A stretch of 64,000 nucleotides of DNA from Clostridiales bacterium (GTDB lineage Bacteria; Bacillota; Clostridia; Caldicoprobacterales; DTU083): NCBI GenBank assembly GCA_012842605.1, contig DUSN01000070.1, positions 1 to 64,000 of the forward strand, in the 5' to 3' direction. Numbering within the stretch: position 1 is the stretch's first letter; every line of letters starts with the position of its first letter. Shown here piece after piece: positions 4,373 through 6,880 of this stretch. Position numbers and translations under genes: made by a program. Below the pieces are notes generated by a model. The model saw nothing but the letters and a program-made list of their open reading frames with translations. It was not told where the DNA came from and did not search any database.

Positions 4373-4605
4373 TATCGTATCATTCCTTTTTTTGAATATG
4401 GCTGATGCATTACTAAACCTGCCTGCATAACATTTGTAAATTTTTAAATTATTATACCATAAAAAGGCAATAATGTACCATATACTAGCCTGAAACTGAT
4501 AGATAATAATCGAATGAGTTGGATGACTGTGCAAATTTGTTTCATTTTTATAAATTATCAAAATATGTAATAAGAATGTGTCTAATTATTTTATATTTTA
4601 GCGTG

Positions 4606-4634
4606 TTGTGTAAATTATCATAAAATGGTATAAT
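4606..4634 (+). promoter_or_regulatory. Sigma-A-type promoter of the Spo0E-like gene
   Basis: TTGTGT (4606-4611), a 17-base spacer and a perfect TATAAT (4629-4634). Transcription should begin near 4641, leaving a leader of about 225 bases before the Spo0E-like gene. Confidence 0.65.
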
Positions 4635-4637
4635 ATG

Positions 4638-4867
4638 CCTAATGAATGTTAGGCTGATAAACTGTTTTACCTAAACATAACCAAATGTTAATGTTCGGTT
4701 TAAGAGGGAAGCATATGTGATAAGCAGCACAGAAATCTATAATTTCTTTTTGAAATTATGGAACTGCCATTTCTTGAATTGCAAATAAGCCCTTACTTTC
4801 GATTGTTTTTGGCAGACCTGTAATTTACTTTTATAAATTTAACTTATTAAGAAAGGAAGGCATCGGT
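4638..4867 (+). other. Long, foldable 5' leader of the Spo0E-like gene
   Basis: About 225 bases without a convincing gene. It contains several inverted repeats: GCCTAA/TTAGGC near the 5' end, ATAATTTC (4739-4746) with GAAATTAT (4752-4759), and a long-range CTGCCA (4764-4769) with TGGCAG (4810-4815). It does not match the c-di-GMP-I, cobalamin or other riboswitch consensus sequences that I know. The hairpins lack a U-run, so no attenuator is obvious. Confidence 0.4.
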
Positions 4868-5074
4868 ATTATTAAGCAATTATTACTAAAGCCTGACAAA
4901 CAAGCAAATATAAAAAATAGAATTGAAGAATACAGGAATTTGATACATGACAGGATTTACCTTGGGGAAAACTTTGTAGCTGATGATGAAATGATTAAAA
5001 TGAGTCAGGACTTAGACAAGCTGATTGTTGAGTATATGTGTGCTCAAGGCAAGAGCAGTTGTGAAAACAGCTGA
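4868..5074 (+). CDS. Spo0E-like aspartyl-phosphate phosphatase, apparent ATT start
   Basis: A 68-residue protein with the family signature SQDLDKLI at residues 46-53 and a helical N-terminal half ending in R-N-L-I-H, as in Spo0E/YisI/YnzD proteins. These dephosphorylate Spo0A~P and so delay sporulation. The frame has no ATG, GTG or TTG between the stop at 4775-4777 and codon 45. GGAAGG ends at 4860, seven bases before ATT at 4868, so ATT (or less likely ATC 4862 or ATT 4871) appears to be the start. Rare starts limit translation, which would suit a regulator needed at low dose. It converges on the XRE gene. Family assignment is good; the start is inference. Confidence 0.8.
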   Translation: MIKQLLLKPDKQANIKNRIEEYRNLIHDRIYLGENFVADDEMIKMSQDLDKLIVEYMCAQGKSSCENS

Positions 5075-5169
5075 ATATTAGATGATTTCATATTTCAACC
5101 ATAATGGTATTTTCATTTCATATAAAGCATCTTTTTCCAGATTTACAAAAATGTGAGCATGTATTATAA

Positions 5170-5186
5170 TGTTCTATATTAGAACA
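5170..5186. promoter_or_regulatory. 17-bp perfect palindrome, candidate XRE operator
   Basis: TGTTCTA-TAT-TAGAACA lies between the converging Spo0E-like and XRE genes. It shares ATGTTCTA with the site at 5499-5506 and TTAGAA with 5461-5466 in the promoter region of the XRE gene, so it may be a third site for the same protein. It could also affect read-through between the two genes. Confidence 0.45.
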
Positions 5187-5191
5187 AAATG

Positions 5192-5437
5192 TTACTTTTC
5201 TATACCTAACAGCCAATTTGGACTGACTTTAAGAATTTGGCTAAGAGCTAATAATTCGTAATCAGTCACTATCCGTTTCTGCTGTTCAATTTTGCTTATA
5301 CTTGCTCTGTCTATATACACTGCAATAGTTTCCAACTTAGCGGATAATTGCTGTTGGGTTAATTTATTATTTAACCTTGCAGTCTTCAGGTAAGGACCAA
5401 TTATGTTTCGATTATCATTATCAAGAATTAATTTCAT
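5192..5437 (-). CDS. XRE family helix-turn-helix regulator
   Basis: An 81-residue protein that is almost entirely one lambda-repressor-like HTH domain: L-N-N-K-L-T-Q-Q-Q-L-S at about 26-36, recognition helix R-A-S-I-S-K-I-E-Q at about 59-67, and a C-terminal N-W-L-L-G. No sensing domain is present, so control would be by dimerisation, level or a partner protein. It is transcribed divergently from a diguanylate cyclase gene; inverted repeats overlap both promoters. It probably represses itself and the cyclase. Confidence 0.88.
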   Translation of the reverse strand: MKLILDNDNRNIIGPYLKTARLNNKLTQQQLSAKLETIAVYIDRASISKIEQQKRIVTDYELLALSQILKVSPNWLLGIEK

Positions 5438-5455
5438 GTTATCTCACCCTTTGTG

Positions 5456-5529
5456 TTTTATTAGAATAGTTTAGTTTTACCTATATCAAAGAATTTTATG
5501 TTCTAATAAAATACACAGAATGGTATTAT
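5456..5529. promoter_or_regulatory. Divergent XRE/GGDEF promoter region with 11-bp inverted repeats
   Basis: TTTTATTAGAA (5456-5466) and TTCTAATAAAA (5501-5511) are a perfect inverted pair 34 bases apart. Rightward, TTCTAA (5501-5506), 17 bases and TATTAT (5524-5529) form the GGDEF promoter, so one arm covers its -35. Leftward, TTTGAT (5490-5485), 16 bases and TATTCT (5468-5463) form the XRE promoter, so the other arm covers its -10. This layout suits a regulator that shuts both genes. Confidence 0.55.
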
Positions 5530-5540
5530 AGGAGTGTACT

Positions 5541-6266
5541 ATGGAAGAGTTTGCAAAAGTTGATAACACAGTATGCATCCTGACAAATTATCAAGTTAAG
5601 GTATATTACAGCAATATTGATAAGGATTCAGCTGAAAAGTACCTGGATGATATCAATATCCTTGACCATATGCCTGTTGACCGGGCTATTAATTACAAAC
5701 TTGGAGAATACAGTATTTCTGTTGAAAAGGTTGTTTTGGATGAAAGAATATACTACTTGGTTCTTATTCAGCAACAGGGCAAATTATATAAATATGCTTA
5801 CAAGGACTCACTTACAGGTTTGTATAACAGAAACTATTGGGAGCAGTTGATTGCTGGTATGCTGAATCGCTCAATACCGGAAAGGTATACTTTGATTATT
5901 ATTGATATGGATAATCTTAAAAGAATTAACGACAACAGCGGGCATCTTGCAGGTGACAGGGCTATATGGATTGTCGGAGATTCAATTAGGAGAAGCATCC
6001 GGAGTCAGGATATTGCAATACGGTACGGGGGAGATGAGTTTTTAATACTTCTTGCAAATACGAAAATGGATATTGTAAAAAATGTAATAAACAGGATTAA
6101 GCGAAATATAAGAAAAAAGGGAAAAGAAGAAAATATCGAAATTGAAATAAGCACCGGAACGGCTTGCTCCGGCTGCCCTTGTGAAATAGGAAAGGTAATA
6201 GCTTTGGCGGACAGCAAGATGTATAAAGAAAAGGCAATAAAAAGGTCAAAACAAATCTATAGCTAA
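5541..6266 (+). CDS. Diguanylate cyclase (GGDEF) with N-terminal sensor-like region
   Basis: A 241-residue cytoplasmic protein. Residues 1-90 look like a small PAS-like sensor; 90-241 form a GGDEF domain starting at D-S-L-T-G-L-Y-N-R-N. The active-site motif GGDEF is intact at 163-167, and an inhibitory I-site R-S-Q-D at 154-157 sits exactly five residues before it, so product inhibition is expected. It should make c-di-GMP from two GTP. No membrane segment is present. The divergent XRE regulator and shared operators suggest transcriptional control. A terminator follows at 6295-6330. Confidence 0.93.
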   Translation: MEEFAKVDNTVCILTNYQVKVYYSNIDKDSAEKYLDDINILDHMPVDRAINYKLGEYSISVEKVVLDERIYYLVLIQQQGKLYKYAYKDSLTGLYNRNYWEQLIAGMLNRSIPERYTLIIIDMDNLKRINDNSGHLAGDRAIWIVGDSIRRSIRSQDIAIRYGGDEFLILLANTKMDIVKNVINRIKRNIRKKGKEENIEIEISTGTACSGCPCEIGKVIALADSKMYKEKAIKRSKQIYS

Positions 6267-6294
6267 TAAAATATAAGATTTGAATCACAAAATA

Positions 6295-6335
6295 GAGGGC
6301 AATGTCCTTCACAGGATGGTTGTCCTTTATTTCTT
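6295..6335 (+). terminator. Terminator after the GGDEF gene
   Basis: AGGGCAA (6296-6302) pairs with TTGTCCT (6320-6326), with an inner TCCT/AGGA extension, followed by TTTATTTCTT. Confidence 0.6.
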
Positions 6336-6451
6336 AGCATGCAAATAGGAATGCAGAATTTTTAGTAATCAGTTGAAAGGAAACTATATTAAGAAGTATA
6401 TTAAGAGATTGCTTGGGATAGATGAGATTCTGGTAAAAAGGGAGGGGTTCA

Positions 6452-6880
6452 ATGAAGATTTTAAATCACATTCTCATTTTTTTGCATGCATTTGTCGGGA
6501 TTGGAGCAATAGCCGGAGGTTTGGCAGCTATTATTAACCCTTATGAGCCTATGGGTATAACAACAGATGTATTGAAAAACTCACCTTTCAATGATTTTCT
6601 CATTCCGGGAATTATTCTGTTTATAATAATTGGATTGGGGAATATTGTAAGTGCTGTAGTCTTAGGACTTGATTACAAATATAAGGGATATGTATGCAGT
6701 ATCTTTAGCTGGGCATTGGTTATATGGATTGTTGTACAATGTATTATGCTGTATGATGTTGTGGCATTACATGTTATATATTTTATTATAGGATTGGTAA
6801 TGGCTGCCCTTTCTGCCATGATATTATTTCATAAGCGTCAGTTTCCGGCAAATATAATTCTGAATTTCTTAGGTAAGTAA
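6452..6880 (+). CDS. Small four-helix membrane protein, function unknown
   Basis: A 142-residue protein with four predicted membrane helices (about 7-28, 48-72, 83-101 and 107-128) and short loops. The second half of loop 1 carries N-P-Y-E-P-M-G. I do not recognise a characterised family; similar hypothetical membrane proteins are scattered in Bacillota. AGGGAGGGG precedes the ATG. It stands alone, with terminators on both sides. Confidence 0.7.
   Translation: MKILNHILIFLHAFVGIGAIAGGLAAIINPYEPMGITTDVLKNSPFNDFLIPGIILFIIIGLGNIVSAVVLGLDYKYKGYVCSIFSWALVIWIVVQCIMLYDVVALHVIYFIIGLVMAALSAMILFHKRQFPANIILNFLGK

Follow-up and report, generated by a model that had tools for sequence, protein, structure and literature searches.

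In Bacillus subtilis, SinR is an XRE-family repressor whose operator is GTTCTYT, with a preference for inverted repeats (PMC3163267). Another group of proteins, the Spo0E family, has an SxxxD signature that was reported to be critical for Spo0E (PMC11115286). Excludons and cis-antisense switches have been described (PMC7154746) and modelled, and the modelling indicates that bistability can arise where feedback acts together with interference and antisense RNA (PMC4519249). In C. difficile, c-di-GMP inhibits early sporulation by a pathway that is unidentified (PMC8653836). The locus analyzed here shares features with SinR, the Spo0E family, and excludons. It lies in a window of 64 kb, by which we mean the whole stretch of DNA that was analyzed, and associates a small XRE protein and its predicted operators with a diguanylate cyclase (DGC), a Spo0E-like gene, and a putative antisense promoter (P_as).

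Genes of the locus

The three genes of the locus all match a Pfam family and follow each other on the + strand in the order Spo0E-like (+), xre (-), and DGC (+) (Table 1). The XRE protein ends at residue 81, has matches to HTH families only, and scores 37.7 bits against PF01381, for a curated cut-off of 23, which places it in HTH_3. A sequence search of the PDB with this protein gave no match at E 0.001. The DGC has an intact GGDEF motif and an intact RxxD motif (RSQD) (RSQDIAIRYGGDEF), and lacks a Spo0E tail. The GGDEF motif is kept in the orthologues, reading YSGDEF in one of them (L033). There is no evident ATG, GTG, or TTG just before the domain encoded by the free Spo0E-like gene, and the ribosome-binding site AAGGAAGG stands upstream of ATT ATT. 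This suggests either that translation begins at ATT, which is rare, or that the start codon is damaged.

Table 1. Features of the locus and their positions in the window.
Feature	Position	Strand	Evidence
Free Spo0E-like gene, SQDLD motif	4868..5074	+	PF09388 E 1.7e-8; probable start ATT 4868 after AAGGAAGG
P_as, putative antisense promoter: TTTACA (5142-5147), N17, TATAAT (5165-5170)	5142..5170	+	Best match, conserved
Operator C, TGTTCTATATTAGAACA, adjoins the P_as -10	5170..5186	.	Sequence, conservation
xre, 81-aa HTH_3 repressor	5192..5437	-	PF01381 E 2.1e-9; 70-93% identity to orthologues
Operator A, directly upstream of the XRE ribosome-binding site; includes 11-mer 5456-5466	5452..5468	.	
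Operator B, upstream of the DGC gene; includes 11-mer 5501-5511	5499..5515	.	
DGC, PAS-like N-terminal domain and GGDEF domain	5541..6266	+	PF00990 E 4.5e-34

Operators and their specificity

A preliminary description of this DNA had reported two perfect inverted 11-mers and a 17-bp palindrome. Both are present and exceed chance: the 11-mers TTTTATTAGAA (5456-5466) and TTCTAATAAAA (5501-5511) are perfectly inverted to each other, and the palindrome TGTTCTATATTAGAACA (5170-5186) has arms of 7 bp. The comparison of the flanks of related loci gave a consensus for the predicted operator of the XRE protein, TGTTCTAATAAAGAACA, which is 17 bp long, has the form TGTTCT-N5-AGAACA, and is AT-rich at its centre. 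Only three 17-mers in the 64-kb window match it with at most 3 mismatches, and these are operators C (1 mismatch, at 5170), B (2, at 5499), and A (3, at 5452). Rather than forming one inverted-repeat operator, the 11-mers turn out to belong to two separate ones, at 5452-5468 and 5499-5515. Operator A precedes the XRE start by about 30 bp and operator B by about 78 bp, the latter adjoining the DGC gene, and operator C is found a few bases past the XRE stop. The possibility that operator C serves as the terminator of xre was rejected, since the 17-bp hairpin is weak and no T-run follows it in the direction of this gene.

Genome-wide counts of operators were obtained by pattern searches. In the window's genome, where they were aimed at a wider regulon, these searches revealed no further site with at most 1 mismatch; there were 28 matches for 17 in the control at 3 mismatches, and matches at 2-3 mismatches barely exceed the control. 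In six other genomes, sites with at most 1 mismatch were found at the XRE-DGC module only, with the exception of Anaerosolibacter (L027). The latter has extra operators upstream of two lipoprotein genes, 1-3.5 kb away, which are arranged as TTTACA-N17/18-TATAAT plus operator (L027:6948-7010 and L027:8595-8660, one of which is a back-to-back pair). In this genome the XRE regulon seems to have spread to neighbouring genes. Among distant relatives of the XRE protein, we found neither a GGDEF neighbour nor operators. Since the sites are specific to the module and these relatives lack both, we regard the operators, the repressor, and the cyclase as one unit.

Conservation and mobility

A genome scan identified 16 loci with a closely related XRE protein (70-93% identity), and searches in related genomes yielded 8 more. 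The operators were compared across 25 loci, i.e., the window and these 24 loci of other Clostridia. The loci of the genome scan belong to Thermoanaerobacterium, Caloramator, Lutispora, Clostridium, Herbinix, Geosporobacter, Anaerosolibacter, Tissierella, Tepidanaerobacter, Caloranaerobacter, and others. Across these loci, which are not fully independent, several being one mobile-element lineage, operator B is found with at most 3 mismatches in 25 of 25, operator A at the same threshold in 23 of 25, and operator C with at most 1 mismatch in 21 of 25. Of the 23 loci having both A and B, 20 show an offset of exactly 48 bp between them, and the three operators occupy near-fixed positions around orthologous xre genes in other genera. 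Because the third codon positions of xre are so diverged (35-54% identity to those of the window), the operators are maintained by selection rather than by recent descent. The preliminary description had named a lack of conservation in orthologous loci as the result that would speak against it. The sites are conserved, and this strongly supports its claim of a small repressor with matching operators at its own promoter region and at that of the DGC. The distances between XRE proteins are also correlated with those between DGCs (rho 0.85, Mantel p 0.001). The DGC gene was lost in one locus (L019) and shortened in two others (L026 and L022), with the operators still in place.

Several copies of the module lie in DNA that different genera have in common: the identity is 90% over 5.2 kb between L022 and L025 and 96% over 7.3 kb between L023 and L024, and the shared DNA carries SpoVS, DndB-like, and primase-like genes. 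The module might then time the entry of cargo, much as the controller proteins of restriction-modification systems do, with a mobile copy that enters a repressor-free cell expressing the DGC-Spo0E protein at once, blocking sporulation while it becomes established, and being shut off later as the XRE protein accumulates. The closest fold matches of this protein, which include C.BclI, C.Esp1396I, and ICEBs1 ImmR, could be cited in its favor, but with E about 0.01 they are weak, and small HTH repressors in general give such matches; moreover, the copies in the window and in Thermoanaerobacterium look chromosomal. We keep this explanation as an alternative, though an unlikely one. In L021-L025, L029, and L030, the module is surrounded by SpoVS, free Spo0E-like, DndB-like, and primase-like genes on elements that occur in more than one genus; these may be mobile elements influencing the sporulation of their hosts. 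Searches of phage, plasmid, and viral collections gave no close copies of the close XRE family, and for this reason we rejected a phage or plasmid origin for it.

A putative antisense promoter

The best match to a sigma-A promoter between 4600 and 6500 is P_as, with 11 of the 12 hexamer bases. It points into xre in the antisense direction, with the DGC gene lying beyond, and operator C, which adjoins its -10, spans its predicted start site. In the 21 loci with operator C, TATAAT adjoins the operator in 18, TTTACA is found at exactly 17 bp in 14, with spacers of variable sequence, and the remaining 7 have no exact TTTACA at this distance. The promoter is kept alike beside spo0E, spoVS, or gcvT (gcv operon). 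Given that operator C is absent in four loci (L028, L031, L032, and L003), P_as is not essential to the module.

The XRE protein could also be a plain autorepressor acting by looping, with operator C as an auxiliary site some 300 bp away that would strengthen the repression of xre and the DGC gene, and the promoter-like hexamers being incidental. Its fold matches include C.Esp1396I and P22 c2, which are known for cooperative binding, and operator C is kept in L029, L030, and L033 despite a poor or absent -35. Yet, in the best promoter match of the region, TTTACA-N17-TATAAT is kept at exact spacing around a variable spacer, and an identical promoter-operator unit stands upstream of real genes in Anaerosolibacter. 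We therefore regard looping as unlikely. That the same unit precedes the lipoprotein genes argues for P_as being a true promoter.

The palindrome had initially been taken for an operator of the Spo0E gene. Operator C does lie between xre and its neighbour, and Spo0E-like or SpoVS genes are frequent there, which would fit a direct control of these genes by the XRE protein. However, operator C is at their 3' end, away from their promoters (in the window, 96 bp beyond the stop codon of the Spo0E-like gene), and it persists where SpoVS, the gcv operon, or another gene is the neighbour, on a promoter that reads into xre. Such direct control is very improbable, and we retain operator C as a putative site for the control of P_as. 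In two loci (L023:5240-5290 and L026:5246-5290), operator C is part of a longer palindrome (about 29-39 bp), and TATAAT-like hexamers are found on either strand, which suggests a two-way promoter.

No terminator between P_as and the DGC gene is conserved among loci; the window has a weak terminator-like hairpin on the antisense strand (5334-5360). The preliminary description had also placed one 11-mer over the -10 of an XRE promoter and the other over the -35 of a GGDEF promoter, and neither assignment was upheld. The promoter search of 4600-6500 found no near-consensus XRE promoter. The -10 proposed for GGDEF, TATTAT (5524-5529), directly adjoins the AGGAG ribosome-binding site, so that the start site would fall beyond the latter, and the TTCTAA/TATTAT promoter, unconserved among loci, was rejected; the one strong promoter of the region is that at 5142-5170 on the + strand, which the preliminary description had overlooked. 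A sigma-D reading of a CCGAA motif between A and B was discarded as well, since the motif is absent in the window and in L018. The Rfam matches at the loci are only the glycine and glmS riboswitches of neighbouring genes, and neither a c-di-GMP riboswitch nor any other RNA element was found above the Rfam thresholds.

Cyclase-Spo0E fusions and sporulation

A Spo0E-like C-terminal tail was found on 11 of the 20 full-length orthologous DGCs, and PF09388 confirms it in 6 of the 19 DGCs that were scanned (best E 1.4e-11, in L061). The SxxxD signature reads SQDLD in the free gene of the window and SQKLD, SEKLD, SQRLD, or SIKLD in the tails. It is missing from the tails of L021, L023, and L024; in these loci, a free Spo0E-like gene lies close by, and that of L021 reads SQQLD. 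The predicted structure of the L061 protein (mean pLDDT 84) consists of PAS-like and GGDEF domains, which match solved PAS-GGDEF structures, and of a two-helix hairpin. In the window, the free Spo0E-like gene stands in place of the tail, and Anaerosolibacter has one at the same position. SpoVS and Spo0E-like genes often neighbour the xre-DGC module. Of the proteins encoded by the genome of the window, two have a Spo0A-type output domain, four are Spo0E-like, and eight are GGDEF proteins. The preliminary description had suggested that the repressor links c-di-GMP to sporulation through a palindrome acting on the Spo0E gene. The latter part was not supported, but the tails and the neighbouring genes favor the link itself. 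The support comes from the architecture of the proteins, and the link seems to lie in the family of the DGC.

Other arrangements of these domains were observed. PAS-GGDEF-Spo0E fusions occur without this XRE protein or the operators (L121:2140-3147, L123:2229-3158, and L124:2321-3211), with a different divergent XRE gene close to the fusion gene in L123, and a different protein, which is larger and whose family is uncertain, has a Spo0E-like domain close to its N-terminus (L122:3018-3791). In L025 (4008-4211), the Spo0E tail is out of frame with the cyclase, probably because of a recent frameshift, and it is intact in the closely related L061. Our search of the open-access literature found no paper on PAS-GGDEF-Spo0E proteins.

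A proposed two-state switch

The genes and their domains, the operators, the promoter match, the positions and conservation of these elements, and the fusion can be read from the sequences. From them we infer binding and repression. The 81-aa XRE protein would bind the three 17-bp operators as a dimer, limiting its own expression at operator A and that of the divergent PAS-GGDEF cyclase at operator B, and shutting the strong sigma-A promoter P_as, at the 3' end of xre, at operator C. Upon a drop or an inactivation of the XRE protein, P_as would fire and the full antisense of xre would be transcribed, and this transcript is expected to continue into the cyclase gene, for which it would provide a long leader (about 365 nt). 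The antisense RNA and the collision of polymerases would lower XRE further, and the expression of the cyclase would go up. XRE and P_as would thus be mutually exclusive, which may result in a bistable, two-state switch. Its output would be c-di-GMP and, in many orthologues, the fused Spo0E-like domain, predicted to dephosphorylate or block Spo0A; in the window, the free Spo0E-like gene, upstream on the same strand, would replace the fused domain. High output of the module is predicted to delay sporulation. We consider it rather probable that the XRE protein represses itself, the DGC, and P_as, and that the module is a two-state switch whose output delays sporulation. Since the PAS-like domain of the cyclase is variable, the data suggest that the output protein also senses an input.

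More tentatively, the module could be a partly mobile bistable antisense switch in which the repressor gene lies inside the leader of its target and the output is a PAS-GGDEF-Spo0E protein with two functions, the synthesis of c-di-GMP and the removal of phosphate from Spo0A. If true, this output would couple a second messenger directly to the decision to sporulate. For the link between c-di-GMP and sporulation in other Clostridia, the fusion of a cyclase with a Spo0E-like domain provides a concrete candidate at the molecular level. In addition, the locus offers a compact example from nature of an antisense promoter that is conserved and apparently under the control of the repressor that it overlaps, a kind of circuit predicted by modelling to be potentially bistable (PMC4519249).

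Comparison with known systems

Like SinR, the protein is an XRE repressor of Firmicutes in a context of biofilm and sporulation, and the half-site GTTCTTT of many module loci would fit GTTCTYT. In TGTTCTTTATTAGAACA, one half-site is GTTCTTT and the other is GTTCTAA, vs. GTTCTYT for SinR. In contrast to SinR, it has 81 aa with an HTH only, without a SinI-like oligomerisation/tetramerisation domain, and in most of the genomes searched its operators are confined to the locus that encodes it. The controller proteins of restriction-modification systems and ICEBs1 ImmR are likewise small autoregulators with an HTH, in some cases on mobile DNA, and give the closest folds, but here the similarity is weak and the controlled gene encodes a c-di-GMP enzyme. 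The gene of the window and most tails share the two-helix hairpin and SxxxD of the Spo0E-family phosphatases of Spo0A (PF09388; PMC11115286), whereas here the domain, with its predicted action on Spo0A, is often fused to a PAS-GGDEF diguanylate cyclase. Finally, as in an excludon, the transcript from a promoter is predicted to be antisense to one gene and to serve as the leader for the divergent one, with the difference that the gene crossed in antisense encodes the probable repressor of that promoter, whose operator lies on the promoter itself.
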